Source: Coemansia sp. RSA 487 (taxonomy: Eukaryota > Kickxellomycota > Kickxellomycetes > Kickxellales > Kickxellaceae). Taken from it: a stretch of DNA of 64,000 bases. The position numbers were made by a program, and so were the translations under genes. Positions 20,886-57,100 of the stretch are shown piece by piece. A model generated the notes under the pieces. The model made no database searches and was not told the DNA's origin. It was given only the letters and a program-made list of their open reading frames with translations. The stretch is taken from assembly GCA_027577595.1 (NCBI GenBank), contig JANBRJ010000091.1, forward strand, positions 1 through 64,000, given 5' to 3'. Numbering within the stretch: the first letter of the stretch is position 1; every line of letters starts with the position of its first letter.

Positions 20886-20987
20886 ATTCCTTTCCCAGTG
20901 TCTTTTATATTTGTCAACCGCTTTATATTTTTTAACCTGATTGAAAAGTGGCCAAAACAAAAGCCAGTTAAGATAGCGGGAAATAAA

Positions 20988-32131: not shown

Positions 32132-32183
<52 letters not shown>

Positions 32184-33367
32184 AGTTGGAGCTGGAAAGC
32201 AAGTCGTCTGGCAGTGACAATGATGAAAGCGACATGGAAGCCGAACAACCGCCCGATATATCGCAGCTACTGTCGCCCTTCGCTATAGACGGGGTGACGG
32301 TGCAGCCAGAGACTTACGCAAGACTGTGCAGAAGCCACCTTGAAACGAATAAGCAGCTGAGCAGCGCTATCGATGGATTTTCGTCGCCAGACAACATCCA
32401 CTGGGGCTGCTCCACATGGGTGCTCTATCTGTTCAACACCGCGTACTCGAAAAACTTGGGATCGACAACCCAGGAAGCGGGCTACAAGGAGCTCGAGTGT
32501 CCACGCGAAGTGCGGGCGAAGCTCAAGCTGCTGTGCATGCTCCCGTACCGGCTCAAGTTCGGGATCCCCGACTCCAGGGGCAACCGTGGCAGCTCTCCAA
32601 ATCGAACGAGCGTAGGCGCTATGGTCGATACCATCGCAGCATGGAACGCATTGGAGCACGTGGACTATTGCAACTCGGTTCCTCCGTGGTGTCTTTGCGC
32701 CGGCCATTGCCAGGGTATCTGCACGCTTATCGTCGGCGAGCTGGCTATGGACACCACGGTGGACAAGTTCTTTGACATTCCGTATGCGTTTTCGATATAC
32801 AGCCGGATCGAGGCAGAGAGCCAGGCGGCAGCACACACCACTGGGTACTCGTCGACGACCCCCGTGATCTCGACGCTTCGGCTCGTGTGTGTGACAAACA
32901 CCGAATGCGTGGCGCGTCTGGAATCGGCGACGCAGGGTCTGGCGATGCTTGCCGTGCAGGGCACCCTGGGCGTCGTCTTCAGAATTGGCGCTGGCGGAGG
33001 CAGTGGTGCATGGAAGCTTGGTGAGTTGCTCTATTCAAAAGATCGCCACGTGGTGGTCATTTGCGGAAGCAACGTGCATCTGATTAGAAACAATGCCGGT
33101 GGCGCTGGCGCTGGCGCCGCCAGCACCAGCTCCGGTACCGATAGGTGGCCGTACTGCTCGTTCAGCGAAGCATGGAAAACCGAGGTGCTTCGGCTGAAGG
33201 CCCTGTCTTTGGCACCTGTCCAGGGATTGCGGCTCAATAGTGCTGACCAGCTGGGCCAAGTGTACGCCAGCGAAGCTGGAATGTCCACTGGGTTTCTAAC
33301 GTACAGCCACAACGTCAATAGTGCAAGAAAGAGGGCATTGAAACTGCCACACCGAAGTTTCTGCTAG
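30536..33367 (+). CDS. Large secreted or membrane protein, function unknown
   Basis: I do not recognise this 943-residue protein. It starts with a likely signal peptide (MPKSYNYNKGVMLLLVAVAF, then LPQLLA). A dibasic VKRG near residue 40 could be a Kex2 site that removes a short propeptide. A hydrophobic segment near 200-220 (WMAVIVTYTGYFIF) may cross the membrane. Cys residues around 100-145 (CQDKCQ...C) suggest disulphides. In the middle is an acidic/Ser-Gly linker, (SE)3(SG)8SE, followed by Glu/Asp-rich sequence. The second half has a Trp/Cys-rich part (HWGCSTWVLYLF, VPPWCLCAGHCQG) and a Gly/Ala-rich loop near 855. No catalytic motif is seen. The start ATG is at 30536; upstream the frame is open only through a TTG. 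Codon use is as in neighbouring real genes and the frame is long, so it is very likely expressed. Confidence 0.72.
32114..32185 (+). repeat. Hexanucleotide array encoding (Ser-Glu/Ser-Gly)n with G4 runs
   Basis: Twelve 6-bp units: TCGGAG, TCGGAG, TCGGAA, then eight perfect TCGGGG, then TCGGAG. They encode SESESE, eight SG pairs, and SE. The eight GGGG runs are spaced by only two bases, so the coding strand could fold into a G-quadruplex. Confidence 0.9.
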
Positions 33368-37318: not shown

Positions 37319-37616
37319 TCAGGCGATTAAGGGAGAGGGGAAAGGATAGTTACTGCTTTCTCCCTCCCTCCTCTCCTCCTCCCCCCATGCAAAGGCGCTT
37401 TCTATCAATGCGTTGTTGATGACGCGGATCAGGCAAGTGTGTGCCTTTCTTTCTGAAAGCTCCTTTCTGGCCATTTCCCTCTTTCTCTCTCCCTCCGCCT
37501 CTCCACGTAGCTTTTATTCCTTTATATATTACTACCTGTTTTTTTTTTTTTTTCACCCTACCACTACCAATTCACTACATATATTCCTCTCCATACGTAC
37601 TGCCTACCATTTGCCA
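37319..37616. promoter_or_regulatory. Pyrimidine-rich promoter/5' UTR of the aminopeptidase gene
   Basis: About 300 bases with dense C/T tracts (37360-37385, 37470-37510) and a run of about 15 T near 37540. Such CT-rich blocks are common before fungal start codons. An open frame runs through it in phase with the aminopeptidase, but it would encode low-complexity Phe/Ser residues before a clear signal peptide. Confidence 0.5.
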
Positions 37617-38789
37617 ATGAAGTGCCTATTGCAAATTGCGTCAGTCCTTGCCCTGGGCATTATTGGCCTTGCTGCCGCTAGCCCGACCCAGCAGCACGCC
37701 TTTGTCGCTCCAGGAACCGCGCCCGAGTCCGGCCTGTATTCCAGCGACAGGCTGATCAAACTCAGCGAGACCGCGCAGCCGCAGCTGATGGCGATGGACG
37801 ACATTTTTGGTCTGCGGCGCGCAGGCGTTCGCTTCATCGACATCACTGATGCACAGGAGCTGTACCAGGACAGTGCAGCCAGTGCAGCCAAGAATGCGCC
37901 TCTGCCGACATCTCTTACCCGCGGCGACGACGTGCGCCAGACGATAGACCGGCTGTCGACCAAGCTGTACGGCGACGTCCTGACGCCCTTCACTGCGTTC
38001 CATAACCGCTACTACGACTCACAGAATGGCAAAAAGTCCTCCGAGTGGCTGCAGCAGCAAATAGCCCAGCTGGTCGACGACTCTTCCAGCTTCGCCGCCA
38101 CTAATGTGACGGTGCGTGCGTTTGGGCACAAGTTCCCGCAGTCGTCGATTATCCTGCGCATCGAGGGCAGCGACCCGCAGCATGCACAAGAGACGGTGCT
38201 TCTCTCAGCACACCAGGACTCGGTCAACATGTGGCTCCCTTGGTTTGGACGCGCAAGCGGTGCCGACGACGACGGGTCCGGAACCGTGACTATTCTGGAA
38301 TCCCTGCGCGCGCTTCTTGCCCAAGGATTTGCGCCAACAAGGTCTGTTGAATTCCACTGGTACGCTGGCGAAGAGGGCGGATTGCTGGGTTCACAGGACG
38401 TTGCGCTTGACTACAAGCGTGCTGGCCGTAGCGTAGTGGCCAACCTGCATTTCGACATGACTGGGTTCTGGAAGAAGGGATCGAAGGAGGTCATTGGTCT
38501 TGTGTCGGACCGCACTGACCCTGAGGTGCGCGCCTTGGTCAAATCGCTGGCTGAAACGTACACACGCCTGAAGACCAGCGAGTTTGCATGCGGCTATGGG
38601 TGCTCGGACCACGCGAGCTGGAACCAGGCAGGATATCGCTCGGCTATGGCGTTCGAGTCCGACGAACTGGAAGCAAACACCTTTATCCATACGCCGAGCG
38701 ACACTGTGGATACCCTTGATTTCGACCACATGCTCGAGTTCTCAAAGCTGGCGGTCGCCTTCGCTTATGAGGTCGGATATGCCAAGTGA
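37617..38789 (+). CDS. Secreted M28-family aminopeptidase (leucine aminopeptidase type)
   Basis: The 390-residue protein has a signal peptide (MKCLLQIASVLALGIIGLAA) and a propeptide-like region before the catalytic domain. The M28 two-zinc site is visible: His in LLSAHQDSVN, the bridging Asp in GADDDGSGT, the catalytic Glu pair in YAGEEGGLLGS, Asp in HFDMTGF, and the last His in FIHTPSDTVDTL. The pattern CGYGCSDHASW is typical of secreted fungal leucine aminopeptidases (M28E, Aeromonas/Aspergillus LAP type), with two Cys likely paired. It removes N-terminal residues from peptides outside the cell for nutrition. The ATG at 37617 is chosen because it gives the signal peptide directly. It stands immediately upstream of the 7-TM array. 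Confidence 0.93.
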   Translation: MKCLLQIASVLALGIIGLAAASPTQQHAFVAPGTAPESGLYSSDRLIKLSETAQPQLMAMDDIFGLRRAGVRFIDITDAQELYQDSAASAAKNAPLPTSLTRGDDVRQTIDRLSTKLYGDVLTPFTAFHNRYYDSQNGKKSSEWLQQQIAQLVDDSSSFAATNVTVRAFGHKFPQSSIILRIEGSDPQHAQETVLLSAHQDSVNMWLPWFGRASGADDDGSGTVTILESLRALLAQGFAPTRSVEFHWYAGEEGGLLGSQDVALDYKRAGRSVVANLHFDMTGFWKKGSKEVIGLVSDRTDPEVRALVKSLAETYTRLKTSEFACGYGCSDHASWNQAGYRSAMAFESDELEANTFIHTPSDTVDTLDFDHMLEFSKLAVAFAYEVGYAK

Positions 38790-39231: not shown

Positions 39232-40110
39232 ATGTATATTCCTGCTGCAAATACTATCTTCAGTCATATGACTCTTCACAAACGCGACAGCCAAAACCCA
39301 AGCGAGGCAATTGCACCCATCGCCTGCTTCGCCAAAGCCTGTTTACCCGCATCCGCCGACTGGCTCACATCCGTGCCCAACGGGATAGTAGGGTTTGTTC
39401 TGGGCATTCTCCTCGTCATTGTCGGCATCTGGCGTGTCGACAAGCAATGGAGGCATTGCAGTATAAAGTACCCCTTGCTGCTCAACGTCATAGCCATCGT
39501 GGAGCTGTTCTTCTCGATGGCGCTCAGGTGCTCGCTGGGTCGGTCCGTCGGCAACAAGACTGCCATGTACAAGGCTTCGCTATTCACCGGGTACCATGCA
39601 GCGGTTATGCTTACGCTTGTGTTGGCTGTGTTCTGGCGCCACATCTATTTGAATCATGACAGATGTGCTTCAGCCAAATCGACAGAACAACCACCGCCAA
39701 CTTCAAAGCTTATGAAGAACCTTACTGCTTCTATAGCCGTAGTGGTGTTCTTTGGCTTGCCAACGGCGCTGGCTGTGCTAAGCGCATCGTTTGCATTGAC
39801 TACTGGTCTGCAGTTTGCCACCGTTCTGGGCGCATTGCTGGGTATTGAAATCATTGCAATGGCCATCAGCTCATTCGTAGCCTTGCGGCGGAACTCTATT
39901 GCCTCCCCTTTGGCTATGCGCTTCCAGGTGCTAATGTCCCTGGTGGTTGTACTGCTTTTGCTCTGGGTATCGTTCACCATAGCACGTGCAAATGTGCCAC
40001 TCGACAACGTAGCAAGAACAAGCCAGACTCTGTATTACCTTTTTGCATATGTGCCGCTGATCTTGGCATGTCTTGTAATGACGCTTGTGGAATCTAATCG
40101 GCCGACGTAG
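39232..40110 (+). CDS. 7-TM protein of the C-x4-C-x4-DWL family, array copy 1
   Basis: The 292-residue protein has seven hydrophobic segments. Before helix 1 it carries the array signature in a variant form (CFAKACLPASADWLTSVP). In helix 2-3 it has MALRCSLGRSVGNKTAMYKA, and near the end of helix 6 ARANVPLDNVARTSQTLYYL, which corresponds to the family motif R...L(D/N)N..R.SE..F.LLN.LPL. The DWL lies two residues further from the second Cys than in other copies. Overall size, seven helices and the late Arg/Glu motif resemble fungal RTA1-like lipid-translocating/stress proteins, but only weakly; I treat it as an unnamed family. The ATG at 39232 gives a protein as long as the other members. Probably a plasma or vacuolar membrane protein with the Cys pair outside or in the lumen (inference). 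Confidence 0.72.
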   Translation: MYIPAANTIFSHMTLHKRDSQNPSEAIAPIACFAKACLPASADWLTSVPNGIVGFVLGILLVIVGIWRVDKQWRHCSIKYPLLLNVIAIVELFFSMALRCSLGRSVGNKTAMYKASLFTGYHAAVMLTLVLAVFWRHIYLNHDRCASAKSTEQPPPTSKLMKNLTASIAVVVFFGLPTALAVLSASFALTTGLQFATVLGALLGIEIIAMAISSFVALRRNSIASPLAMRFQVLMSLVVVLLLLWVSFTIARANVPLDNVARTSQTLYYLFAYVPLILACLVMTLVESNRPT

Positions 40111-40653
40111 TAATATCCGTATATGGAACATCCCAATTGTTTTCTGTACATGTCGCCTTTTGGTATAGAGAGCAAGCTATTTTTGTAATTTATTCGGTTC
40201 TTTTTGTGAATAAAAACCCTTCAATGTGTATAGAATTTGTATTCACTATGGCAATCTTGGCACATTTCAGAAGAGAAAATCTATGTAAGACATAAAAACA
40301 ACAACACATCTTTATGCCACATGTATAAAGAAATTTGCAAGGAGCAAAAGGATGGATTAGATAAAATAAGCTTCCTCTTGTTTTTTTTCTACCTTCTTTT
40401 TGTTGAAATATCTGGAGGAGATTGTAAACTCATATTATTGCCCTGCATATTTAAAAGACCTGGTAGACGGGCAGCAATTTCTCAATTTTTCCTTTCTTTT
40501 TTTTTCCCCTTGAAACCAAATTGCTTGTACAGATTATTTTACTCCTTTCTACCAATATTTCATGTTTATATCATTATTATCATTATCGCAATACATTTGC
40601 TGGACAATACGCTCATCACTTTTTCGGACAAGAAGATTTTTTTAAAGTGAATA
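40111..40653. other. Spacer between 7-TM copies 1 and 2
   Basis: 543 bases, AT-rich with T-runs (40380-40400, 40495-40512). A possible polyadenylation signal (AATAAA) is at about 40209-40214. A long frame through it lacks resemblance to anything and ends in T-rich sequence. Confidence 0.45.
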
Positions 40654-41697
40654 ATGAATACGCCAACCCCTACTATGGATGGAATCCCAGCACAACCAAG
40701 GCTTATCGGTGGTTTGATCGAGAAGCTGATGGTGGCCTCGAAGCAAGGAAAACCAACGCCTAGGTACTCCCAGCTGCGAGCAGTGTATTGTCTTGACCAG
40801 GACTGCCCCAAGGAAACCGACTGGCTTCTGTTCCAGCCCACAGCTATTCCGCTTTGGGTAATTGGCGCCATGATGCTAACACTTGCCTTGGTAGCAACCA
40901 TCAAATACCGCAAAGGCGAGAGCTTCAAATTACTGTTTATTGGTTCAAAGCTCACCGGAATAGCGCTAGGGATAGCGATGATGCTGCGTGCATCAGTGGC
41001 CCAGCTTAACAACAGCCTTGTGGCTCTGTACGCGGCATCAATGTTCTTTAACTACCATGCCGGCTTACTTGCATATTTCAAGCTGTGGAATGGAGCTATG
41101 CAAATAGTAACGCTGTTCCAGCCGCCAACATCAGCAGAGAAACGCCTATCATATGCCTTAAGATTTATCTTCAGGTTTTCCCCCTTTGTGCTTACTGTTC
41201 TTGGCGTTGCATTAATGTTCCATCCTCCTTCCAGAGCACATGCTTCCGGAATGCACTGTATTCAGGTTGCACTTGCAATGGTTTTTATAACCAGTCTGGC
41301 TATTATCCTGGCGTTTGTTGTCCGTCTTCCGGCAATGCGTGGGCATATGGACAGACGTAACATTGTTTCTACGTTTATTTCGTTGCTTCTTGTCGAGATG
41401 TGGACGCTATTTATGTTTGTGCGCTCCTTTGTTGGGCTGAACAATGTGGCGAGAACAAGCGAGATCATATTCTGGTTGCTCAACTACTTGCCAATAATCG
41501 TACAGTGCTTGGTTGCCATGTCACTAGGCGAGCCGTTTTCGGAAAAGGAGTCCCCGGTTCAATTGGGGAATGTAGCTGAGCAAATTGCACAGCCAGAGCC
41601 AGAACTGGAATCAGATACCAAACAAGCACAGCACCTCGAAAAGGGATACACAATGAAGGAAGCCTCTTTTCTGGAAAACAGGAGCTACTTGGTTTAA
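40654..41697 (+). CDS. 7-TM protein of the C-x4-C-x4-DWL family, array copy 2
   Basis: A 347-residue member. A 47-residue hydrophilic N-terminus precedes the signature YCLDQDCPKETDWLLFQP. Seven helices follow, with MMLRASVAQLNNSLVALYAA in the helix 2-3 region, ALMFHPP after helix 4, and MFVRSFVGLNNVARTSEIIF late. The C-terminal tail of about 55 residues is hydrophilic, rich in Glu/Gln and longer than in other copies (ends ENRSYLV), so it probably faces the cytosol. The start ATG at 40654 is the first in frame. An AATAAA at 41715-41720, just after the stop, may be the polyadenylation signal. Confidence 0.75.
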   Translation: MNTPTPTMDGIPAQPRLIGGLIEKLMVASKQGKPTPRYSQLRAVYCLDQDCPKETDWLLFQPTAIPLWVIGAMMLTLALVATIKYRKGESFKLLFIGSKLTGIALGIAMMLRASVAQLNNSLVALYAASMFFNYHAGLLAYFKLWNGAMQIVTLFQPPTSAEKRLSYALRFIFRFSPFVLTVLGVALMFHPPSRAHASGMHCIQVALAMVFITSLAIILAFVVRLPAMRGHMDRRNIVSTFISLLLVEMWTLFMFVRSFVGLNNVARTSEIIFWLLNYLPIIVQCLVAMSLGEPFSEKESPVQLGNVAEQIAQPEPELESDTKQAQHLEKGYTMKEASFLENRSYLV

Positions 41698-41970
41698 TAG
41701 TTTGTATTAAGAACAATAAATAGGATCGTTGTATGAGTGGTGCGAGCAATTCAAAAAGACCATGGTAGAAAGCTTGCTGAACGTTACATTTTCGGACGTG
41801 CCGGCTTTGCCTTGTTTTATAAAGATGGAACACGGTGGAAGTTTAGTGCTTTTGCAGTTTTTCCATAGCTTGTGGTTAGGCTGGAAAGGTTGTACGTGTA
41901 AAAACGATAGAGATGGGCTCCTCCCATCCGCATGTCCAAGAAGACACCGTCACATTTCTTCAGTTTCTTC

Positions 41971-42772
41971 GACAATAACTGGCCCAAAGAACGCGACACG
42001 CTTATGTACACACCAAACGTTCCAGCACTCTGGACGCTCTGAGGCGTAACATTGGCCACTAGCTGGTTTGTTTATTCCACTCAAGAACCGTCGCGGTCTG
42101 GAAATTGCATCCGGATTGGCAAAGAAAAGAACTGCAGCAATCGCACTTGGCCTGGGTATGTATCTTCGCGCTGCGCTCAATCTCGAGTCCATCGGCAATA
42201 TAGCCATCTATTCAGCATCCATGTTTGTCAACTATTTTGCCAGTCTGGGCATCTTTTACACGCTGCTCTGCCATTCACGCAACATTAAGACACTCTTTAC
42301 AAAACCATCCAAGCCATTAAACATTGCTACGCTTGCAATTGGTGGCACCGTTGCACTGACAATGTTTGTGCTCCTTGTTCTTGTCGCCTCATTCATGTTC
42401 CATTGCCCAGGAAACAGTTAAATGGCTGCTGGGATGCGCTGTATACAGACAGTGCTTGCTATGATTCTAGTGTTTACTCTGGCTATTGCCATAGCCTTTG
42501 TCGCTCGTCTCAAGATGCACCTACAAAACCATACGACAAAGCACAACCCTGCTTCGACATTGCTTGTTTTTGTACTGCTCGAGCTCTGGGCCTCATTCAT
42601 GTTTGCCTGCATATTTATTGGTGTCGAACATCTAGCAAGCAAAAGCCATACCATGCTCTTCTCTATTGTCACCCTGACCTTTGGGCAGCCACTTACCGGC
42701 ACTGCACCTACTAAATGCGTTGAAGAATCAATTGTCGAAGCAAGCGTTAACAAGGCAGAGCTACAGGCTTGA
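41971..42772 (+). pseudogene. 7-TM array copy 3, degenerate
   Basis: Clear remains of another array member. The signature region is still legible as NNWPKERDTLMYTPNVPALW, matching DCPKETDWLLFQP...LW of copy 2, but the second Cys and the Trp are changed and a stop follows (around 42040). A shift of frame near 42060-42070 then leads into LGLGMYLRAALNLESIGNIA, the helix 2-3 motif. An in-frame TAA at about 42419-42421 lies just after SFMFHCPGNS, in the loop after helix 4. The reading then continues as MAAGMRCIQTVLAMILVF to the end, with the late Arg motif eroded (MFACIFIGVEHLASKSH). At least two stops and one frameshift, so no full-length protein is expected. Confidence 0.8.
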
Positions 42773-43137
42773 TTAGTTGTTTATTTCTTTTTTTTATAAT
42801 ATTGTATATCTTTGTATTTTCAACATATTAACGAATACAGCCAATAAAAAAACTCTAAAAGCGTCTTTATAAATGCATTCGTCTCTTTTCTTTACTTTAA
42901 CCAACATTCATTTAAAAACAGAAATGAATAAAAGCCAGCGATTTACTGTGTAGAGACTTTACCTTTTATTTATTTATTCAGAACGTCTTTGTATACATTG
43001 CCTGTTTCATTGCCTCCATTCCTTAATTTCTGTTTCTATCTTTTCCATAACACAGTCCTTTTTGGTTCTTTTCCCAATCGCAAGTTACTTTTGTTTTTCT
43101 ACCTATTATTTAAAAGTTGCAATAATTACTAACCATC
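42773..43137. other. Spacer between 7-TM copies 3 and 4
   Basis: 365 bases, AT-rich. It ends with a 35-bp block conserved with the equivalent position of copy 5 (annotated separately). Nothing else was recognised. Confidence 0.5.
43103..43137 (+). promoter_or_regulatory. Conserved block directly before the copy 4 start codon
   Basis: The 35 bases before this ATG match the 35 bases before the copy 5 ATG at about 28 positions without gaps (shared CTATTATTTA, GCAATAA and TAACCA). The block is a 5' leader or promoter kept since a recent duplication; it may simply be young rather than selected. Confidence 0.5.
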
Positions 43138-43980
43138 ATGTCTCCAGCATTTCAGGATTTGAAAGGAATAGACAATATATATTGTCCTGACAAGTCGTGC
43201 TCCAGGGAACAGGACTGGCTTGTGCACGAGCCAACAAAAGCAGCACTTTGGGCACTGGGCAGTGTCATGCTGTTCTTTGGTCAGCTTTTTGCCTTCACAA
43301 TATGCTGTCCCTCATATTCGTTATCTGGGAGAGCAAAAATCCGAAGCGCTACAACATTTTTTGCAATAAGCATGTTTCTACGCGCAGGACTCACCCATGA
43401 AGCGGGAGACAAAACAGCCATGTACATTGCTTCAATGATATTCAACTACTTTGCTGGTGTTGAGCTCTCGAATATCCTAATAGCCAACAGCATTCGCATA
43501 TGGGGTGTGCTTGGTAAGCCCTCTTTTATTCCTGTAATCTGCTCATGGATGTCAAGATTTGTGCTTTCTTGTATCGAATTCTTGTTGATTGTAGCTGGAG
43601 TATATCTGATGTTTCACCCATACAACAAGGGCTCTGCGGGTCTCGGTTTAAGGTGTTTGCAAGCAGCAGTGGGAATTCTGTTAGTGATGGCAGTATACAC
43701 AGATATCTTGTCTCTTGCTTGCAGCTGGTTTATAGAGTACATATCGATTGGAAGCATAATCTCGTCAATAATGATTATATCTTTGGCGCTCCTATGGAAC
43801 AGATTCATGTTTGCCAGGACATTCTTCGACCTTGACAACTCAACCAGAGATAATGAACTGGTTTTTTTCATGATCAATTACTCCCCGCTTATGCTCGGAT
43901 TCCTTGTCATTCTATTTTTGGATGAGCCGTTCCAGTTCCATGGGCCAAATGAAGATGAGGATACTTATATTTCCATCTAA
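43138..43980 (+). CDS. 7-TM protein of the C-x4-C-x4-DWL family, array copy 4
   Basis: A 280-residue member with almost no N-terminal extension: MSPAFQDLKGIDN, then the signature YCPDKSCSREQDWLVHEP. Helices run approximately 37-58, 70-90, 98-118, 132-155, 163-187, 195-218 and 235-255. The helix 2-3 motif is MFLRAGLTHEAGDKTAMYIA and the late motif FARTFFDLDNSTRDNELVFF. Copies 4 and 5 share about 90 percent of bases in the first 140 nt and are the youngest pair of the array. The short tail ends in acidic residues. Role unknown; see copy 1 for the weak RTA1-like resemblance. Confidence 0.78.
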   Translation: MSPAFQDLKGIDNIYCPDKSCSREQDWLVHEPTKAALWALGSVMLFFGQLFAFTICCPSYSLSGRAKIRSATTFFAISMFLRAGLTHEAGDKTAMYIASMIFNYFAGVELSNILIANSIRIWGVLGKPSFIPVICSWMSRFVLSCIEFLLIVAGVYLMFHPYNKGSAGLGLRCLQAAVGILLVMAVYTDILSLACSWFIEYISIGSIISSIMIISLALLWNRFMFARTFFDLDNSTRDNELVFFMINYSPLMLGFLVILFLDEPFQFHGPNEDEDTYISI

Positions 43981-44387
43981 CAAGTGTGGCCCATCAATAA
44001 GGGTATGCTTTTAGCATTCATTGTTTATATTCTGCTTGGGATATATGGCCACGTTTTAATAAACCCGCTTGGTTTTAGCCTTTTAAAACATCTCTTCTTT
44101 CAAAGATATAACTACTTGTCAATTTCATGCACTTGGATTAATTAACCAAGGGTTGTCTTTTTTTTCTATGCAGACATTTACTCGGAAACAGCAGAAAGTT
44201 TAATGCGATGCTGCTGCGCAGTTGCATACCAATTCCTGTTGAGCTACCATTTGTACACGTTCCACTTTGATTTTTTTCTTTTGAAATAAGTCCATCATTT
44301 CATTTCCATTTGCCCGTTCTCGCTTTTTTTTTTCTTTTTCCCATCCTTAAAGCTATTATTTACAAGCCGCAATAAATATTAACCACA
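43981..44387. other. Spacer between 7-TM copies 4 and 5
   Basis: 407 bases, AT-rich with T-runs near 44157-44168 and 44325-44340, ending in the conserved 35-bp leader. No gene. Confidence 0.5.
44353..44387 (+). promoter_or_regulatory. Conserved block directly before the copy 5 start codon
   Basis: The partner of the block before copy 4: an ungapped alignment over 35 bases with about seven differences, starting CTATTATTTA and ending just before the ATG. Confidence 0.5.
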
Positions 44388-45197
44388 ATGTCTCCAGTAT
44401 TTCAGGACCTCAAAGGAATAGACAATATCTATTGTCCTAGTAAGTCGTGCTCCAGGGAACAGGACTGGCTTGTGTACGAGCCAACACAAGCAGCACTTTG
44501 GGCACTGGGCGGTGTCATGCTATTCTTTGGGTTTTTCTCGGTTACATTCGGCGACAGGGGCAAAGTGGTGTTTTATGGAAAAGCAGATATCCGAAGTGCC
44601 GCCACTTTCCTTGCAATAAGCATGTTCCTGCGCGCGGGATTGACCCACGAAAAAGGCGATAAGACAGCCATGTATATCGCGTCAATGATATTCAACTACT
44701 TTTCTGGCGTTGCGCTCTCGAATATCCTTATAGCCAACAGTTTTCTTCTGTGGAATAGACTTGAAGAGCCCTCGGGTATGGCTCAAGTGTGCTCCATGTT
44801 TACACGTTTTGTGATGTTTTGCGTCGAGTTCTCGTTGACTGTTGCTGGAGTGTATCTGATGTTCCATCCGTACAACGAGGGCTCTGCGGGTCTAGGAATA
44901 AGATGCCTGCAAGCAGAATTGGGAATTTTGCTAGTGCTGGTGGCATGTACAGCTATCGCGTTTTTCGCCTGCATCTGGTTTGTAAGTTACATATCGGTTG
45001 GAAATTTGGTGTCGACGGTAACGACCCTATGCTTGGCACTTCTGTGGAATGGGTACATGTTTGCCAGGACGTTTGTCGACCTTGATAACAAGGCAAGAGA
45101 CAGCGAGAAAATGTTTATCCTGCTCAATTATTTACCGCTTATGCTTGGGTTCCTTCTGATTCTGTTTTTGGACGAACCGCTTCGCGCAAGAGCCTAA
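44388..45197 (+). CDS. 7-TM protein of the C-x4-C-x4-DWL family, array copy 5
   Basis: A 269-residue sister of copy 4 (MSPVFQDLKGIDN, signature YCPSKSCSREQDWLVYEP). Differences from copy 4 concentrate in the loop between helices 1 and 2 (FGDRGKVVFYGKADIRS here) and in the loop after helix 3. The functional-looking motifs MFLRAGLTHEKGDKTAMYIA and FARTFVDLDNKARDSEKMFI are kept. This pattern, with motifs held and loops drifting, suggests both copies are under constraint. The tail is short (DEPLRARA). Confidence 0.78.
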   Translation: MSPVFQDLKGIDNIYCPSKSCSREQDWLVYEPTQAALWALGGVMLFFGFFSVTFGDRGKVVFYGKADIRSAATFLAISMFLRAGLTHEKGDKTAMYIASMIFNYFSGVALSNILIANSFLLWNRLEEPSGMAQVCSMFTRFVMFCVEFSLTVAGVYLMFHPYNEGSAGLGIRCLQAELGILLVLVACTAIAFFACIWFVSYISVGNLVSTVTTLCLALLWNGYMFARTFVDLDNKARDSEKMFILLNYLPLMLGFLLILFLDEPLRARA

Positions 45198-45596
45198 ACC
45201 ACTTGGTAATCTAGGCTGTTGCTTCTTCTTGATTGATATAGCTAGCTTGTGCTTAATTATGCACGTCTTTGGAAATAATAAAATCCTTGAAAGGCTGAAT
45301 ATAATCCAGAGAGAAAACAGCACGCAGCAGAAAAATGGATAGATGGACTGCAAGTCCCATCTCTTTCTTTCCCCTATGTGCACGACTGTTTGCGCAAAGT
45401 TTGTTTGAAGAAAGGAGGCTAGCAGCACACATGTTACCTTATTTTCAAAAACTGCGGCACAGCGAGACTTTACCAGAATGAGGCTGGCTTGTTAATAGTT
45501 TGTATCTTGTTCGCTGAAAAACGGCCAAAAGATTCGATGATTATCCAAACATTTCCTTCACAGCATCATTCATCATTCCATAATAATATATATACA
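45198..45596. other. Spacer between 7-TM copies 5 and 6
   Basis: 399 bases. A possible AATAAA-like signal (AATAATAAAATCC, about 45276-45288) follows copy 5. The copy 6 frame is open over the last 108 bases through a TTG-type start, but similarity begins later. No other gene. Confidence 0.45.
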
Positions 45597-46397
45597 ATGC
45601 AAACATCTAAGGTGTCCAGTGTATTTTGTTTCAGTAAAAAATGCCACGTTGATTTTGACTGGCTGGTGTATACACCACCACAAGAAACCCTTTGGATATT
45701 AGGCGCAGGAGCGTTGTTGGCATTCGTGGTGATATTTGTCATGTACCACAAGGAACACGCTATAGACAAAGTGTCTTCAATGGTGCTGGCCACAGCGTAT
45801 GCTCTAGGACTAAGCATGGTTTTGCGCGCATCATTGTCACTAGAGAGCGGAGACAAAAAGTCAGTGTACGGAACATCAGTGTTTTTCAACTATCTGGCTG
45901 GAGTGTGCGCGCTGAATGCAGCCTACAGGCTCCATGACAGCACGCCAATGAGGCGGAACCTGCTGGTGAGCACCGAAAGGCACGGGAAACTAGCAGTCCT
46001 GTTTCTAATGGCGTTTGTTCCGCTGGCTCTGCTCATCTGCGGAATCGCTCTAATGTTTAACCCGCCAAACGAAATGCAACGTGCAGTCGGGGCCAACTTC
46101 TTGCGTGCGCTTGCAGTTCTGGTGAGTCTTACATCGATAACTATATTTGTATTGTTTGCAGGCCAGTACGAAATGATGCGCAAACACGTGTCGGCTAGAA
46201 AGATTTTGATGGCAATAAGTGCATCGCTGATGGTTGGGCTGTGGAGTGTGTTCATGTGTGTCAGATCGTATATGAGTCTGAGCAATCCGACACGTAGCAG
46301 CGAAACGGTCTTTCTTTTGCTAAACTTTCTTCCAATCACACTTGGATCGGCTGCAGCCTTATTAAACAGCGCAGAAGAAGACGAGGAAAAAAGTTGA
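45597..46397 (+). CDS. 7-TM protein of the C-x4-C-x4-DWL family, array copy 6
   Basis: About 266 residues from the ATG at 45597 (MQTSKVSS), followed directly by the signature FCFSKKCHVDFDWLVYTP. An in-frame ATG at 45537 would add 20 residues. Helix 2-3 motif: MVLRASLSLESGDKKSVYGT. ALMFNPPNE follows helix 4 and CVRSYMSLSNPTRSSETVFL comes late, then LLNFLPI. The C-terminus is a short acidic tail (EEDEEKS). No catalytic residues can be proposed. It is intermediate between copy 2 and copies 4/5 by motif wording. Confidence 0.76.
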   Translation: MQTSKVSSVFCFSKKCHVDFDWLVYTPPQETLWILGAGALLAFVVIFVMYHKEHAIDKVSSMVLATAYALGLSMVLRASLSLESGDKKSVYGTSVFFNYLAGVCALNAAYRLHDSTPMRRNLLVSTERHGKLAVLFLMAFVPLALLICGIALMFNPPNEMQRAVGANFLRALAVLVSLTSITIFVLFAGQYEMMRKHVSARKILMAISASLMVGLWSVFMCVRSYMSLSNPTRSSETVFLLLNFLPITLGSAAALLNSAEEDEEKS

Positions 46398-46893
46398 TTC
46401 TTTTTGTAATGTTGCAATGTGTTTTCTTTGTAAATATATTCATTCACTCCCCCTTTTTTGCTGTTGTTGCCAAGAAAGATGTGTAACTTTGTGGTTTCTC
46501 CGAGTCCAGCGAATATTCGTTGTTTTTTTTACAAAGAGAAATTCGGTGTTGATCGTTTGCATTTTTTAGATACGAAAAGTTTTCTTTCCCTGTCTAGTGC
46601 AAAAAACTTGTTATTATTTTTTTTTGTATTTCCATTTCAAACTCCACAAAGAGGTTTTTATTACTTTGTTTGCAAGGAATAAGATCCATTATATCAACGC
46701 GAGTATGTATATTTTTTGCCATATGTTTTATTAGTAGCCAAGATGAACCTTTAGCTTTTTTCTTTTTCTCCATATTCATTTTCTACTGCATCATTCATTA
46801 TCCTCAATACACACACACTCACTCACTCACTTCCAGCATTTGCATTATTATCATTACACATAGCATTCACTTGCATTAATTCTTGGATGTACA
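46398..46893. other. Spacer between 7-TM copies 6 and 7
   Basis: 496 bases, T-rich, with a short ACAC/ACTC repeat at about 46806-46830 close to the copy 7 start. No gene. Confidence 0.5.
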
Positions 46894-48051
46894 ATGGATA
46901 CTTCAATTATTACATCTGTCAGTCAGAGCATCGTAGAATGCATTGCGACATCCGCGGTAACTGAAGTGCAAGCATTTGGTGCTCCCCCCACACGCATCGT
47001 CCATCCAGCGTTAACCGAATCAGTTACTGAAGCCGAAGAATACGAAGTGGTCGCATCCCTATCGACAGCATTTACATTATCCGAATCAGAACCATCATCA
47101 AAATCACCACTAGAATCATCAGAGCCAGAGTCAGGGCCGGAGTCAGGGCCTGAGTCAGAGTCAGACAAAACAGAAGCAGGGTTTGGGCTCGACGAAAGCA
47201 GCGGTGCCATACTGGAACCATCGAATGTGGGAGCAGCTTCCACACGGTCAGCGCAAATCTTTTGCCTGAAGAAGAACTGCAGCCAGAACCGCGACTGGCT
47301 AACAAGCACGCCCAATGCAGCGGCGGGGTGGGCAACCGGCGGAATCGCCATAGTTATCGGAATTGTCCTGTTTGTGCCAACCATTGTGTGGCGGAACACC
47401 GATTTCCTGGACGCCGTGTTTGCGCTGGCCGAGCTGTGCATTGCGCTATTCTTGCGCGCAGCCATTAGCACTACGAAAAGCAACCAAGATATCATATACA
47501 AGGCGTCGTTGTTCTTCAACCACCATGCAGCCATTGAGCTTATCCTTCTGCTGGCAATCATGGTGGCCCGGCTACATGCACATTATAACCCAGGAGCCGC
47601 TTCAAGACAAGTAGTATGGGCTGCAGTGGCCCGCTTCATATCCATCTGCTTGGCCGTCATGGTGCTGGTTGGCGTGCTACTGATGTTTGGCAGCAATGTG
47701 GATTCATCGGCACCTGGGATCCATTTGATGCAAGCAGTGACGTTCTTCATCCTTGCCACAGCGCTGGTCCTGGCGGCATTTGCGATGAAAATGACATTCA
47801 ATGTGGGCGTATGGTTCTACAAGAAGCATTTTGCTGTCCTCTTTATCTCGTTCTTCCTAGTTGCTCTGTGGGCCACATACATGTCTGCTCGCACACTGGT
47901 GCCGTTGGATAACGTGGCGCGCGACAGCGAAGTCATGTTCTACTTGCTCAATGTGTTGCCGCTGGCTCTTATTGGAGCTGTGTTTATCGCTCTAAGAGCT
48001 CCGCTGCTGTACAACTTTGAGATGACAGCGCACTGGAAGTGTGAAGCTTGA
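46894..48051 (+). CDS. 7-TM protein of the C-x4-C-x4-DWL family, array copy 7, with long acidic N-terminus
   Basis: The 385-residue protein adds about 125 residues before the signature FCLKKNCSQNRDWLTSTP. This extension is Ser/Glu/Pro-rich with short repeats (ESGPESGPESESD) and has no hydrophobic signal, so it is probably a disordered, perhaps glycosylated, extracellular region or a cytosolic tail. The 7-TM part keeps LFLRAAISTTKSNQDIIYKA, LLMFGSNVDSSAPGIHLMQ and SARTLVPLDNVARDSEVMFY followed by LLNVLPL. The start ATG at 46894 is the first in frame. It converges on the fatty acid synthase gene with only 83 bases between stop codons, so the two 3' UTRs probably overlap. Confidence 0.76.
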   Translation: MDTSIITSVSQSIVECIATSAVTEVQAFGAPPTRIVHPALTESVTEAEEYEVVASLSTAFTLSESEPSSKSPLESSEPESGPESGPESESDKTEAGFGLDESSGAILEPSNVGAASTRSAQIFCLKKNCSQNRDWLTSTPNAAAGWATGGIAIVIGIVLFVPTIVWRNTDFLDAVFALAELCIALFLRAAISTTKSNQDIIYKASLFFNHHAAIELILLLAIMVARLHAHYNPGAASRQVVWAAVARFISICLAVMVLVGVLLMFGSNVDSSAPGIHLMQAVTFFILATALVLAAFAMKMTFNVGVWFYKKHFAVLFISFFLVALWATYMSARTLVPLDNVARDSEVMFYLLNVLPLALIGAVFIALRAPLLYNFEMTAHWKCEA

Positions 48052-48134: not shown

Positions 48135-51100
48135 TTAGAATACGTATTCGTTGGTTTCGTGGTTATAATGTGCACGGGCCAGTGGATTCAGCAAAACACA
48201 TTCTTCTTGATCCTGGGTATACGGCGGTGCTTTCTTGACCTGCACAAACGTATGCTTTCCGGTAAAAGTGTCCTGCCAGTATCTGTAAGCAGCGGCATTT
48301 CGTTTAGAAAGCTTTGCGTTGTACATGTCCAGCTGCTCCTTACTAAGCGTTGAGAGGAAGTAGTCTGGATGGACAACCAGGATTTCGGCACCGACTTGGC
48401 CAAACCCAAACGATTTGAGCAAGCACGCCCTGACTTTGTCCACCTGAAGGGTGCGTGAGGGGAACACAGCATATTCACATTGCAACTTGGAGTCGATGTT
48501 ATCTGCATTGCGGTTGCCCGGAACAAGGCCGGTGCGCATGCTCTGCAACGCACTGTTGAGCATCCATGCGCCAGCGGGGCCCTTGGGATGGCCCGTGAGC
48601 CATTTCTGCGCAACCACAGGCACCGAGAGCCCGGGGGTGCGACCCAAATGCGATAATTGTCTGTCAAAAACCGCGGTCTCGTTCAGGTCATTCGATATGG
48701 TACCGGTTCCATGGAACGATGCTAGCCCTATGTCGTCAACACCCAGGCCCCAAACTGCAAGGCTGCCGCGCAGAGGTGAGACCTCCGACACACCGTGCCA
48801 AAAATCGGAGCCCCACGCATCGAGCACTGCCTTGCGCATCGCATCGACTTTGAACGGACTGCACTCGTTGTTGTTGTTGTTGTTGTTGTTGTTGGGAATC
48901 AGTGTATCGATGGCGCTGTTGGCTCTGGCAATCTGCTCGCGTCTGTACTCAATGTCCAGCAACTGCTGGGTATTGTTGGCAAATCCTTCATGGAAGTGGG
49001 CTTCAGCAGCCGATGTCAAGATGCCTTTGCCGGGAGCGGGCAGCGACACGCCCTGCTTATCGGTAGCCGATGTCGAATGTGCCATAATGCCGTAGACGGG
49101 GGCGCCGAACTCTAGCGCAGCAGAGGCGGACATCAGAATAACCACGCCTGCGCCCTGCGCCTCAACAAACCCAGTCCTTGTGGAGGTGCAAGGGCGCGAC
49201 ATTTCCCGTGGAATCCTCCCAGCTGCTGCATCGTCTGTGGAGCTGCCGGTGGCGCCCATCTGCGCAAACTCATAGCTCCCTTGCTCCACAAAGCCCTCGA
49301 ATCCGCCAGCAACCATTACTCGGGCCTTGCCTGTGCGGATTGTGTCGGCTGCCACGTCCATAGAAAGCATAGATGTCCCGCATCCACCCATTGGCGGTCT
49401 AATCACGCCTGCCGACGAAAGCAGCAGCATGTTGATCCACGCCACTGTTGTATTTGCAAACGTCTCTTGCAAAATGTCGCTCTGGACAGGCGTGTCTGTT
49501 AGCCGGTTAAGGTACATATCGCGAATCGAATGCACACCTCCGGCCCCCGACCCCAATGAGCTTCCCACTTGCGATACGTGGAAGTACTGGTACAGCTCGT
49601 ACGGATCAGTGATACCCGACCTCACCAGCGACTCGACTGTGGCACAGATAGCGTAGCAGGTGACCGGATCGACTTGATTCACAATGTCCCGTGGGATACC
49701 GTAGCGTTCTGGATCCCACCCAGTTGGCAATTGGGCGCCCACCAATCGGTCGAAGCGAAGCGCCTTGGGAACCATCAGCACTGCGCCCCTGCGGAACCGC
49801 ACGCGCCATGAGTCATTAGTTGTGGGCCATATATCGACAGCATCGCCGTTGCGTAGCTTGAACTGTGCAGCTTCATCGGCAGTGGCTTCAAACGGATCCA
49901 GATCGTGGTCCACTTGGAGCTCACGCAGAATCGGCACAGCGCCAGGATCCTTTTTGTTATCAAGAAGTGCAGGCTCTAGAAGCCGTACTCCAGTGTGGTC
50001 AAGGATCCGTTGCTCGTATTGCGCCTTGATTTGCGTATCTTTGACAGCAGTGCCTGTTTGGGAATCAACCCACGAGCCATCCTGTGGCTTGATAAGTCCC
50101 ATGATCCACGCCAACTCAACGCATCCTTCGAGCGAAAACTCGCCGAATGCTTCCATCTCCCACCGCGTCTCTGCATGACCATAGGGTCCGATCTCGCCAT
50201 ACCCGGTGATAACCACCACCTTGTCCAAGTTGACCATTCCCTGGAGACTATGGCACAGCTCCTGGTACTTGCGGGGCTGTGGGAAGAACGTTTGGTGGTT
50301 GAACAGCAGATCAACCGAGTAATCGGTATGCAGCAAGGAAGCGCGATGGCCGCCTACCAGGGCAATGTCTGCGCTGTATTCTGCGGCAATCGCTCTTTTT
50401 GTCATAAAGGTATCGCGGATTGTGCGATGCGCATCAGCTACAACCTTGTTAACATTCCGAATGCGCTGCAGCCCGCCGTTTAGATCCGCCCACACTGGCC
50501 CCATTTGCGCCAAATCTATGATCAGCGGATGCATCAGTGCAGCTATATTGGTAGCCATTTCGTCAGCAGAAAACGTGCACGCCCCGCTCTGTCGCATCAG
50601 TGGGGCCACCGCATCGTTGGCTGCCATCAACCCGGTGCCCCGGGTCCACCCGATCACAGCTCCAGCAACACACAGGTGCCTGTGCCATGCTTCCGATTCC
50701 CACCGATTGAATACTGTTTCTAACGCTGCTTTGGATTCCCCGTACAATCCGTCGTTGCCAAACACTCCATGGTTAGGCGACAATGGCAGAACGGCCAATG
50801 TTGCTGGTCTGCATACATATGAGGACTGTTGGTTTCTCTGCCGCACTTCGCCCAACAGCCGCAGCACGTTGGTCAGCATCACTCGCATCGATAGCTCGGA
50901 GCGCGATCCCAACGATGATACATCCGTCCCGTAATCAGCCACCGCACCAAACGGCAGCAAGTAGTCCAAGTACCATCCTTTAGCGGAATAAACGTAGTTG
51001 ACAAGGGCCTTGGTATCCGCAGCAGAACCTTGGTTATATGGAACCACGACAAGTTCGGACCCGCGTGCTCCATACTGCTTGTACAGTGACTCGTAGAATC

Positions 51101-54100
51101 GTAAAGATGCGCATGTGTATGTGGACGTGGTTGCAATGATGCGTGCACCGCCTGAGAGAAGCCGCTTCAGTATGTGTGCGCCAATCGATCCCTTGCTGCA
51201 TCCTGTTATCAGCGCGATTTTGCCCGCGAATGAAACGCCAGGTGTTAGGAACTCGTGCAAACATGAATGGTATGTGGCGGTAAGTGATTCAGAGTACTCC
51301 CAGTTGTGCGATTCGGGTGATTTGGAGCGCAAGTGAACCAGTGGCGGCCACGAGTTGCTCAAATAGCAAGAGCTGCTGCTTACGGTTTCCAAATATTGCG
51401 AAAACAAAGGGTGGTCGAGTTCGCGAAAAACAGGGGCTTTGTCCTTGGCAACGAGACATTGGTCTCTGATAAGACATGCCAGGCTCCGTGCGTTTCCAAC
51501 GTTGCTTGAGAGCGTCAAGGCGGTGACGAACCTTAGCAATCCATCGTCAGCACGGTTAGCCAAGGCCAAGATCCTGGCGGCTTGATTGTGGATTGGCTGG
51601 TCAGGATTGTTGGTGGCCTCGTGTATCAGACACAGGGCGTCCTCCCGTGCCCAGTTCCAATACGAATCAAAGCACCGCGCCTTGCGCTTGTCGAAGAGCG
51701 GGCGAATGCCGCCGATAAACTCGGTACCCAGCTCGTCTTGTAGCTCCGCTACTTGGTGCTGCAACCCAGCTGCTTTTCTCTCTTCTGTCTCGTATAGCCG
51801 ATGGCCCTGGCGCAAGTCAAGCCCAAGGTACCGTGCATACGCTTCAAGCTTGTCGTTGGCCAACCTCCTTCCCTCAGCAGTGCTGCTTTCTGCATCTGCC
51901 TTGAGTTGGTGGCTCCGTGCTGGCTTTGCCGAGGACGATAAGGACGACGGTTTTATTAGAGATGCGTAGGAGATGCCGGCGTTCTCGGCAAACACCTTGA
52001 CTACAGAGTGCATCCACTTGCGTGCGGCTGGGATGCCGCCCAGCCTGGTTGTAGGCTCCATAGTCAGCGCCGTAAGAAGCACCCCATCCTGCACATGCCT
52101 TTGCTTAAGCTTCCCTCCAAACTCGTCTGCAAGAGCTGTACGAAAGGCGGATTGCGAAAAGGCGCCCGGCATTTTGTTGCTAAACAGCCGTGCCACCTGC
52201 ATCGTCGTATGTTTGCCACTGAGCTGGCTTCCAGTAAACGAAGCACCTATTATTTGTGCTAGCTGGGCCAATGTAAGCTCGTCCGGCTGGTCAGGAACGG
52301 TTGCAGCCAGATCCGCCGCACTCCTGGCTTCCCCAGTGGTGAACTCTTTGAGCAAATCGCCCAGAATCTCATTCTGCAGCGTTGATTTCCCGCCTGTCAG
52401 CTCACGCACAGTTTGTGTGCCATGCACCGATGCAAGCGGCACACGGAGCTTTTGCGCAATGGTGGCGCAGATAATGTCCAGCGCAGTTAACGGCACGTCG
52501 ACTGGCGGGCCACCATCAATGTCGATGGTTTCGGGATCTTCTGGGTCTGATTCGGACGGAGCAATGCACTCTAATGGCAGCAGCTCAGCAGGTGCGGTTG
52601 TTTCCTTGGGACTTGCATCTTCCTCAGGATCCTGGTAAAAGACTGTCGATTCGTTGCTTAGCACATGGAGCACCGAGACTTGGCTATCGAGTCCAAGGAG
52701 CGCCAGCGTGCCTTCGGCCATCCTGCAAAGCGTCGAGTTTGGCCCGATCTCTATGAGCTGTCGGGCACCCAGCTCTGCAAATAGCTTGCGTTGCGTTTCG
52801 ATCCACAGAACAGGGGACGCAAACTGATACGACAGGAGCTCAATAACCAGCAATCGCGCTAGCCTAGAAACCTCTTGCTTGTTCTCGAATAAATACGATT
52901 CGTCTTCTTCGCATGATGGCCACTTGGAAAGCTCATCAGCGATTACGGGCGACTCTGTTACTCTGTACATCAGCTCAAAGTACTCGCGGGACACGTCAAA
53001 TGTTGTAGCTGTGAGGTTCGGAATGTAGCGCCCGATAAGCGAAGCGGTATCGACTTTTGTTTCGCGGATCATCCTATGGATGCACGCCCGGAACTGAGCA
53101 GCTCCTGGAAGCAGATGGCTGGAGTGGAAGGGCACGTCAATGCCAGGGATCGGAATAGTTGCACATCCACGCTTGATCTCATCGCCTTTCAAGGTGCCAT
53201 GCAACCGGGCAACCATATCAGCAACGATTTGCTTGCCTTTGGATCCACCAACACTGAGATGTGTTTCGTGAATAAAGTCAAGCACCATTCCCAGCATCTG
53301 TAGCTGCGTGCGCGTGCCAGCCACAACGTACTGATATCCCTGGACATTGTAGTTGACTATCTCCAGCAAGTCACTGGAGGCTTGGCGGATAACGCCGATA
53401 ACATACTGTAAGCAGCTTTCAGTAAATCCGTGCGATACTCGTGAAGGATTGGCGGCCACCAGCGCAAAATCGGAGCCACCCATTGGGTCTCTTCCAACTA
53501 TCGATTGCATTGTCATCCCGCGGATAAACGTAATATCGACGATATCCTCAAGCGTCATGATTCCACAGGCAGCCAGCGCGCCGTACTCGCCCAGTGAATG
53601 GCCTGCAATAAGCGCCCTTTCGTCAAACACGCCACGGGAGCGCATCTCTTCGGCCATCGCCACATCAAAAAGCATAATTGCGGGTTGCGCAAACTGCGTG
53701 GCATTCAGCAGTCCTGTGGGTGAGCGAAACGTATACGACCTATTGTCAGGGTTTGCAATCTCGGGAAACTGCGCATAGTTTTCACGGATCCTCATTCCAC
53801 TTGGCGTATTGTTAAAGTACACTGTGTATTCTTTTGGGTTGTCGCGAATAATGTCGACGATTGAGAACCCGAACCGCTCTCTCATGTGTTGATCTGCACG
53901 GTCGTATACAGAGCGTACGACATGGGACCGACTATACCACTCCAGCCCCATCCCGACCTCCTGCGACCCTTGCCCTGTGAATACATACACTGTGCGTGGC
54001 TGCTCCACACGCGCTGTGCATTCTAGCACCAGAGCACCTGTGGCTATGTTGCGTGTGTAGCCGCGGATGACTATTTGGCCATCGCTCATCCCGGCACGCA

Positions 54101-57100
54101 CCATCTGTATCTCTAGCGTGTCGCCCGGATATACTAGCCCCGTGAGCTGGGCATTGAAGCTTTGCATGCGCTCAGCGTTGCCCTGAGCCATGTGCAGCTC
54201 GATCAGTTGGCGCACCGAAGAACACGTCCATAGCCCCTGCATCACGGGTCCTGGGAGCCCTGCAAGATCTGCAAAGTACTCGCTGGTGTTGTGCGGGTTA
54301 TGATCGCCCGAGACGCTAGCAAAAGCGTGTGCCTCAGAGTCAGGCACAGTTACTGTGTCTTTGACAAGAACAGTGGTGCCAGAAAAATCCGCTTTGGCGC
54401 TCATCTGGTGCTTGTGGCTATCCAAGAACGCAATTACCGGGTTGCCCAAAGATGCGCCCTCCTCGTAGTCAACCATGCCAATGTGCGGCCGCTCATGGAG
54501 CCCCAGTACAAGATGCACGGTTCCCTTGGTTGCTGCGTGCAAATACGCGCCGGTTGGGCTGAGCACGTACTCTGAATGTAAATGGAATTCCAGCGTGTCT
54601 CCAGGCTTTGTTCGTCGTTTCCTTTTGTTCGGCTCGTCGTTGTAGTAGAACCATTCTTTGGATTCAAGGACTTTGAGTATGTCGCTTGCGATATTATCGA
54701 TAGTGACCACTGGCTCGTCGACCCGACGGAAACAAGCGCCTGGGTGCTCAGTGTTTCTGAATAGAAACGTCGCCCTTATTTCGGCGCACTTTCTCGATGT
54801 TCCACAACGAAATACATCGGATACCGCAACCACTTGCTTGCCAACCCGCGGGATTGTTTTGATTTCATCGACCCGCGATACTATATCCAGCTCATCTTCT
54901 GCAGCCAGAAAGGCGCAATCACTACCGCATTTTTCGACAGAGTACTCTGTTTGCACCATGTCGAGCAATCCTGGGCTGACGCACACGTCGGTCAGAATGC
55001 GGAACACGCCGGGAAGTGCTTCAATGGCCAGCATATCGAGCGACATGTCCTTTGCTACAGGAACCCTTTGCTGGATATACGTCAGTGGATACGAGCTGTC
55101 GCTTCTAGCTGTGGCAACAGCTGGAGTCTGAGTGTTCGTTCCATGGCGCCATATATCGCTGTAAAAGCTTGTAATGCGGTCATCGCGGCCCTCCATTACT
55201 TCATGGATCGGTGCAACAGGCGTTGATGCATTATACAGATACTTTAGAACCAGTGCGCTGGATCTGTGTGGCAGAACAAGTGTTATTTTACACTCGTCTT
55301 CCAGCGTAAGCGATAGCTCCAGCGCAGTTGGCGCCGAGCTGTTCCACACCTGCACGGACAGAGGCATCTTGCTGTTTGTGTGGTCGGTAGTTACAGAAAC
55401 AGTGCGCCCGTACCTTGGTCGCAGCAGCCGGCTAATGTAGTTGTCAGTGTGTCTCTTGTTTTGAACAATCACGGGGTTGGTAAGAATAGTAAAGAGCCAG
55501 TTGTTTGTAGAGCCACCAGATAGAGCTCGATGCCATGCGCTGGTGCTTGGAAGTATACCTGGATTATAGAGTGGCAGCTGGTATGTGCGCTCGGACAATG
55601 AATGGCAGATGACTGTGTTGTAGTTCAGTAAAGCGAAGGAGTCAACATCCAGAGTGTCATCCGTAGGTAGATCCGTGTCAGTTTCTGATATCTGTTGCAC
55701 CAAGCCATTATAGATACCGTCCATTATATTCTTGACTGGCTCGTTTTTAATAAGCGAGTACTGCACAGAAACAGGGCCCTGGCTGATCAACACACGTTGC
55801 GCTGCGTCGTCCGATCCATTGCTACACACAGAGCCAAGGTCCTCGCATTGCCATTCAGTATCGCGCATCAGATAATCGGCAAAATCAGCATCAAGGACTG
55901 GAACAAAGGGAACAGCCTTTTGCCCAGGCCTCTTGCACAAGTAGATGAAATACATGATATCTGCTGATGCGAGCAGCTGCCTATGTGCATCCGGGTAAGC
56001 CAGCCTTACAGCTGCAATCTCATCAAAAACAGCGTCATCGTATACTACGCCTTGCTTGCGCTCTGCCTTAAACGATTGCTCCGCATTATGTAGCCGCATA
56101 GATGTACGTTGAACGAATTTGGCCACAAAGTTGCGGTACGTCGGGTGGATCCAGCGCTGCTCCTTTGCCACGTACATCAGGTCGACCAGCCGTTCAATCA
56201 CCTGGATGTACGTCATATCCGACAGTTCGACATACTTTGAGTCGCTGCCAAGCCCGAGCTGGCCAAACCACGGTCGCATGTAATCGGCACACAGTCCACG
56301 CACAATCCAGTCCCGGTTTGTCCGTAACACGTTTGCCAGTTTGTCATGCGGCTGCGACAGAACTATTGTGCTCAATTTATGGCAAAGCATTGCCGCACGG
56401 TTGGCCACCACGTGTACAGGCTGTCCACGCTCATTGCAAATAGAAACAATCCCACCACAAACAGCAGCGCTACCCTCTCCGAACAGCGCAAGCATGTCGT
56501 ATGGATCCAAGCCGGATGCCTCAATGATAAGCTGCTTGGCCGCATCGTCCATATCCGATTCGCTTGAAACCATTATACGCGAACACAGCATGATTCCGTC
56601 AAAAGGCATATAGGGCCTATTAAACATTGCACCCCAAGAACCCGTCAGATATGGCATAATCCCGTCGGCGTTGCCAAACCCCGAGTTTGCAACAAGAACA
56701 ACATTGCTTTGGGCACGAATCAACTTGTATGCCTCAACAAGTAACGGAATATGGAACTCCTCAAACGAATGAACCCCACCGCAACGCCCTCCTGTCCACT
56801 GGAGCATGATAGGAAAGCTGGGACACGATTGTGCAATTTTTAGCGTGTTTTCTATGTCGCTGACACTTGTTGCTCGGAGCGCAACATACCTTATGCCAGC
56901 GCTATCGAGCATCGCAATGTCGGTAGTCGTAATACTATTGTCAACGCATACGCCGATTATCGGAAGTTGGTTTTGCTGGCGCAGACGGGCAACCGTGCGC
57001 AGCTGCCACTTGCTTTGCTCATTGCCGCCCTTATAATTAGAATGGCGGCAGCTCACAGTTATTCCGTGTCCAGGCGGGATGGTGTCGGCAAGGCAAGTAA

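Follow-up and report, generated by a model that had tools for sequence, protein, structure and literature searches.

The window analysed here, a 64,000-nucleotide stretch of DNA from Coemansia sp. RSA 487, contains at positions 39232-48051 of the forward strand a tandem array of seven genes, of which six are intact and without introns and the seventh is broken in several places. The limits of the array are exact, copy 1 starting at 39232 and copy 7 ending at 48051. A preliminary description had counted six intact copies and one wreck on a single strand within 8.8 kb, and the coordinates and open reading frames agree with this count, all of them lying on the forward strand. The array is flanked on the left by a gene for an M28 peptidase (37419-38789, forward strand) and on the right by one for a fungal type I fatty-acid synthase (48135-58118, reverse strand), in which the beta and alpha parts are fused in a single frame of 3327 aa that also includes a run of nine Asn residues. 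Genes for CDC45, Med17, VPS28, the mu subunit of an AP complex and a P450 are also found nearby, in what is a fungal genome with few introns.

Copy 1 (39232..40110, forward strand, as are all the copies) encodes a protein of 292 aa with seven TM helices and a C-x4-C-x5-DWL version of the signature described below, while copy 2 (40654..41697) encodes a seven-TM protein of 347 aa with longer N- and C-terminal tails. Copy 4 (43138..43980; 280 aa) is a recent sister of copy 5 (44388..45197; 269 aa), and these are followed by copy 6 (45597..46397; 266 aa, seven TM helices) and copy 7 (46894..48051; 385 aa). The last of these is distinguished by an acidic, Ser-rich N-terminal extension of about 120 aa (46894-47250, forward strand), which lies ahead of the C-x4-C cap, is absent from the other copies and is predicted to be situated outside the cell. 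Copy 3 (approximately 41932-42772, forward strand) is a pseudogene: an in-frame stop ends its first 36 codons, a frame change occurs somewhere in the region of about 42040-42080, and a second stop is present at 42419-42421. In this copy DTL replaces DWL, the Cys pair is unrecognisable, and the C-terminal third is degraded, with the ECL3 motif and TM7 region decayed or shortened.

Elsewhere in the window a second tandem array is encoded on the reverse strand at 16290-28309, and is composed of PF02458 genes (Transferase, of the BAHD/trichothecene-acyltransferase type). Its copies at 16290-17786 and 20988-22490 were recovered by a Pfam scan, whereas those at 22826-24322 and 24705-26207, as well as the two fragments of a broken copy at 27189-28309, were assigned by eye, all of them again on the reverse strand; a P450 gene (19332-20885) is situated inside this array. 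A further multi-helix membrane protein of 338 aa is encoded at 29189-30205 on the forward strand; it has no Pfam match, is unrelated to the seven-TM array by profile, and may resemble the UPF0658-type Golgi proteins. The gene at 30536-33367 (forward strand) codes for a protein of 943 aa that contains an acidic stretch of Ser/Gly repeats and whose sole match, to the low-complexity Serglycin, falls below the cut-off.

It is beyond doubt that the copies of the seven-TM array are mutual homologues. Every intact copy was recovered by a profile built from the remaining five, with E-values ranging from 1.7e-31 to 2.4e-95. An HMM of all six, run against the six-frame translation of the window, matched only the six copies and three frame pieces of the wreck, with a clean gap between the intact copies (E 1e-93 to 1e-120) and the best unrelated ORF (E 0.09). 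The leave-one-out profiles, along with the helix predictions considered below, support the earlier proposal that these genes form a tandem array of seven-TM paralogues. The pairwise amino acid identity between copies is 22-36%, with the exception of copies 4 and 5, which are 66.5% identical. A block at 43103..43280 (forward strand), which takes in some 35 bp ahead of copy 4, is duplicated at 44353-44530 upstream of copy 5, the two stretches being 89% identical at an offset of 1250 bp; this is the trace of the youngest tandem duplication in the array. For copies 4 and 5, the sole pair in which dS is not too high to be trusted, dN is 0.24 and dS 0.78 (dN/dS of about 0.31), and these values point to purifying selection.

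A hydropathy scan detects seven helices in every intact copy, helix 2 of copy 4 being sub-threshold and yet aligning with its equivalents. Seven long helices are likewise present in both AlphaFold models computed from the array's own alignment, namely model 1, which represents copy 5 (pLDDT 62, pTM 0.64), and model 2, which represents the core of copy 7 and is of fair quality (pLDDT 73, pTM 0.73). The tally of Lys and Arg residues in the loops favours an N-terminus on the outside in four of the five scorable copies (13:5, 17:4, 12:6 and 9:4) and is even in copy 5 (7:7), and we infer a plasma-membrane topology in which the N-terminus is outside and the C-terminus is cytosolic. In fold searches model 1 produced weak matches to microbial rhodopsins as readily as to GPCRs. 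In contrast, nearly all of the 50 PDB matches listed for model 2 are GPCRs, with probabilities of at most 0.99, TM-scores of at most about 0.56 and a best E-value of 0.09 among the matches listed; these include Ste2 (7ad3), to which the likeness is weak. A search of a viral fold library matched nothing. Structure prediction, which had been proposed earlier as a check on the array, yields the seven-TM bundle, but the fold matches that follow from it are weak and, for model 2, mainly to GPCRs. As far as the models go, they support a seven-TM bundle that may be regarded as broadly GPCR-shaped and no more.

The Cys pair and DWL that the preliminary description had reported before helix 1, with a longer spacing in copy 1, are indeed seen in all six intact copies: the C-x4-C element is invariant, and the gap from it to DWL is x5 in copy 1 but x4 in each of the others. 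Literature searches found no description of this C-x4-C-x4-DWL signature. Two other motifs reported at the same time hold up in part. In the late motif the core R-x4-L-x-N-x2-R is truly invariant, but L(D/N)N and SE are not universal, given that copy 6 has LSN in place of the former, whereas copies 4 and 1 respectively have NE and SQ in place of the latter. Similarly, in the segment described as LRA/C followed by AS(M/L)F.NY the first element stands (as LRC in copy 1), but the second varies: copies 4 and 5 share ASMIFNY, and copies 1, 6 and 7 have ASLFTGY, TSVFFNY and ASLFFNH, respectively. In the numbering of copy 2, the invariant residues ahead of helix 1 are C46, C51, D56, W57, L58 and P62. 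Helices 1, 4, 6 and 7 each contain one such residue (G71, G184, W250 and P280, respectively), L111-R112 closes helix 2, Y126 and S129 mark the start of helix 3, and R257, L262, N264 and R267 surround the loop that precedes helix 7. The mean identity is 54% in ECL3, 38% in TM3 and 32% in the N-terminal cap region; the C-tail, at 10%, and the three cytoplasmic loops, at 7-8% each, are much less conserved. Combined with the predicted topology, this distribution would place the conserved polar residues on the outer side; they are concentrated at the outer helix ends and in ECL3, and no conserved acidic/basic pair is present inside the helices.

The earlier remark that no named family with this combination of motifs was known is consistent with direct searches of the array members, as a Pfam scan of each at E-values up to 10 gave no match of note and a sequence search of PDB gave no real match. 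Relatives were also sought in viral, prokaryote, plasmid and phage DNA, and none were found there. Several apparent matches were examined and set aside. One member matches the MASE3 sensor domain (NF047874) with an E-value of 3.4e-5, but so does this protein after a helix-preserving shuffle, and the family consensus does not match. The PDB sequence matches to OPG140, Tetraspanin-15 and a calcium-channel gamma subunit are noise, and the profile matches to DUF2157, DUF373, DUF3185 and TMEM_230_134 are compositional noise.

The only named family for which comparison at the sequence level lends some support is RTA1 (PF04479). Twelve consensus versions of the array, including a BLOSUM-weighted one, six leave-one-out versions and four generated with hmmemit, were compared with it. 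The BLOSUM-weighted consensus of the six copies matches with an E-value of 0.0012, its residues 94-272 covering positions 15-198 of the 208 in the profile (14-199 over the matching consensuses as a whole). Three of the six leave-one-out consensuses match, with E-values of 0.00055, 0.067 and 0.4 and always in one register, while the other three and all four hmmemit consensuses miss. RTA1 is thus matched by four of the 12 versions, as against none of the 15 controls, whether helix-preserving or reversed. Nevertheless, chance matches to membrane families, with E-values from 1.6e-5 to 5e-4, are encountered among these consensuses and controls (TMEM_230_134 at 1.6e-5 and a shuffle matching MARVEL at 5e-4), the best consensus reaches 20.0 bits against a curated cut-off of 24 bits, and single members do not match. 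In the PF04479 register the helix-2 Arg of the array falls on position 15, the ECL3 Glu of the SE motif on 178 and the helix-7 Asn of the LLN motif on 185. These positions correspond to those at which two yeast sequences, identified as RTA1-type by their Pfam scores alone (4e-74 and 9.5e-70), carry the hallmark Arg, Glu and Asp; copy 1 has Gln in place of the Glu.

Profile-profile comparison, which the preliminary description had suggested, was confined to these two RTA1 sequences and gave E-values of 0.13-0.36, which are not significant; nor did the array profile, when scored directly on RTA1 sequences, give anything above helix-preserving shuffles. A search for RTA1 sequences among viral contigs, prokaryote contigs, plasmids and control genomes gave no match, and neither did a sequence search of PDB for an RTA1-type structure. 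Given that the other consensus versions miss, and that chance alone gives unrelated membrane families E-values as low as 1.6e-5, membership in RTA1 is not shown. Of the loose likeness to RTA1 noted at the outset, what stands is that the landmark residues are in register in some consensuses, but the E-values are at the level of chance matches, and the kinship would accordingly have to be seen as a lead and not as a result.

The array proteins probably handle or sense a lipid-like or other small molecule from outside the cell. Our best reading, offered tentatively and with low confidence, is that they are outer-leaflet ligand or lipid handlers that would work like RTA1, in preference to being G-protein receptors. 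Rsb1 and Rta1 have been described as seven-TM lipid-handling proteins, and the flopping, export or regulation of lipids is attributed to members of their family, with the role of Rsb1 as a floppase or as a receptor-like regulator being under debate (PMC9600344; PMC9697666). In the array proteins, the N-terminal cap would consist of the Asp-Trp-Leu motif and the Cys pair, which, given its predicted extracellular location, probably forms a disulfide. This cap might combine with the R-x4-L-x-N-x2-R loop, the start of helix 3 and the Arg with which TM2 ends on the outer side to make up a conserved outer-side site, where an amphipathic or lipid-like ligand would be bound from the outside or the outer leaflet. 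The ligand might then be acted on in the membrane in the style of RTA1 and Rsb1, by lipid flop, export or lipid-dependent regulation, as opposed to G-protein coupling. The combination of a conserved outer face with an unconserved cytoplasmic face and short inner loops suits recognition at the outside or outer leaflet followed by action within the membrane. Tandem duplication with deep divergence suggests that the ligands have diversified, and the array might thus supply paralogues with different ligand ranges.

In favour of this RTA1-like mode of action we count the outer-face conservation, the charge tally, the RTA1 register with its clean controls, and the dN/dS of copies 4 and 5. Against it we count the absence of single-member matches, the consensuses that miss, chance matches that are as good, the non-significant profile-profile values, the missing TM2 and TM4 hallmark residues, the short loop 5, a fold search that leans weakly towards receptors, and the identification of the two RTA1 comparison sequences by Pfam score alone.

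It is possible, if doubtful, that the array instead encodes lineage-specific cell-surface chemoreceptors, with a GPCR-like seven-TM bundle that recognizes diverse external ligands and signals via G proteins or other partners. The preponderance of GPCRs among the listed model 2 matches, the N-out layout, the tandem expansion into paralogues of such low identity and the conserved outer face would suit such a role, and one consensus matches 7tm_3 over most of the domain (E 0.16). However, no listed fold match falls below the E-value of 0.09, model 1 is equally rhodopsin-like, and the short, poorly conserved cytoplasmic loops share no coupling motif; furthermore, Pfam searches at E-values up to 10 gave no match to the 17 fungal GPCR classes (PMC12842992; PMC13308352). 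An alternative that concerns descent, and that therefore overlaps with our best reading, which concerns mode of action, is that the copies are very divergent but true RTA1 members and hence no separate family. The end-to-end consensus match, the Arg15, Glu178 and Asn-for-Asp185 in register, the equal number of helices, the N-out layout and the P(S/T/N) before helix 1 are in line with it, but with E-values inside the chance range of the controls, non-significant profile-profile comparisons and helices 2 and 4 lacking their acidic residues, we regard it as unlikely. That the proteins have nothing to do with RTA1 or GPCRs and serve as channels for solutes or ions, or as a membrane enzyme or assembly factor of another sort, is improbable: assorted membrane families do appear at noise level in profile searches, but there is no conserved acidic/basic pair within the helices to mark a transporter or enzyme core, and the conserved polar residues are instead at the outer helix ends and ECL3.

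Should the array be a remote branch of RTA1, it would add a new type of sequence to the lipid-translocating exporters, and would mark the TM2 Arg and the Glu and Asn/Asp of the ECL3-TM7 region as essential. Should it be a receptor family, it would represent tandem-expanded surface sensors in what is probably an early-diverging fungus, a group whose receptor repertoires are little known. On either reading the conserved outer cap offers a concrete target for mutation. We would rather doubt than hold that these proteins define an undescribed fungal class of seven-TM receptors or lipid handlers, with a C-x4-C-x4-DWL cap over an ECL3 site, distinct from RTA1 and from the 17 GPCR classes, and tandem-expanded for ligand diversity. 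The family is unnamed in the libraries searched, and unnamed fungal seven-TM families are common: a survey of 1357 fungal genomes reported 1969 clusters of unassigned seven-helix proteins, with 141,666 members in all, and several of the largest clusters have no Pfam domain (PMC12842992). As such unclassified families are numerous, the array is not exceptional in kind, and its earlier designation as the most interesting unexplained system was overstated.

With these unclassified fungal clusters the array shares its seven helices and, in the case of many clusters, the lack of a Pfam domain (PMC12842992). It likewise resembles the fungal GPCR classes I-XVII (Ste2, Ste3, Git3, Dicty_CAR, Pth11 and others) in its seven TM helices, predicted N-out layout and weak fold likeness, but differs from them in having neither a Pfam match nor a conserved cytoplasmic loop motif. 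The Rim21/PalH sensors of pH and lipid asymmetry also possess seven TM helices and an external N-terminus (PMC10739146), but unlike them the array members have no Pfam match to any such family. In comparison with RTA1, the array lacks the acidic residue of TM2 (E..GY.GR) and the D..S...Q of TM4, whereas the two RTA1 sequences compared lack the C-x4-C-DWL cap, and its TM5-TM6 loop is very short (about 6-16 residues), while Rsb1 needs a long cytoplasmic loop 5. An N-out layout is generally assigned to Rta1 and Rsb1, and that predicted for the array agrees with it. Like the RTA1 family, the array is fungal, has seven TM helices, P(S/T/N) just ahead of TM1 and an Arg at the outer end of TM2, and displays a Glu and an Asn/Asp seven residues apart at the ECL3-TM7 junction.
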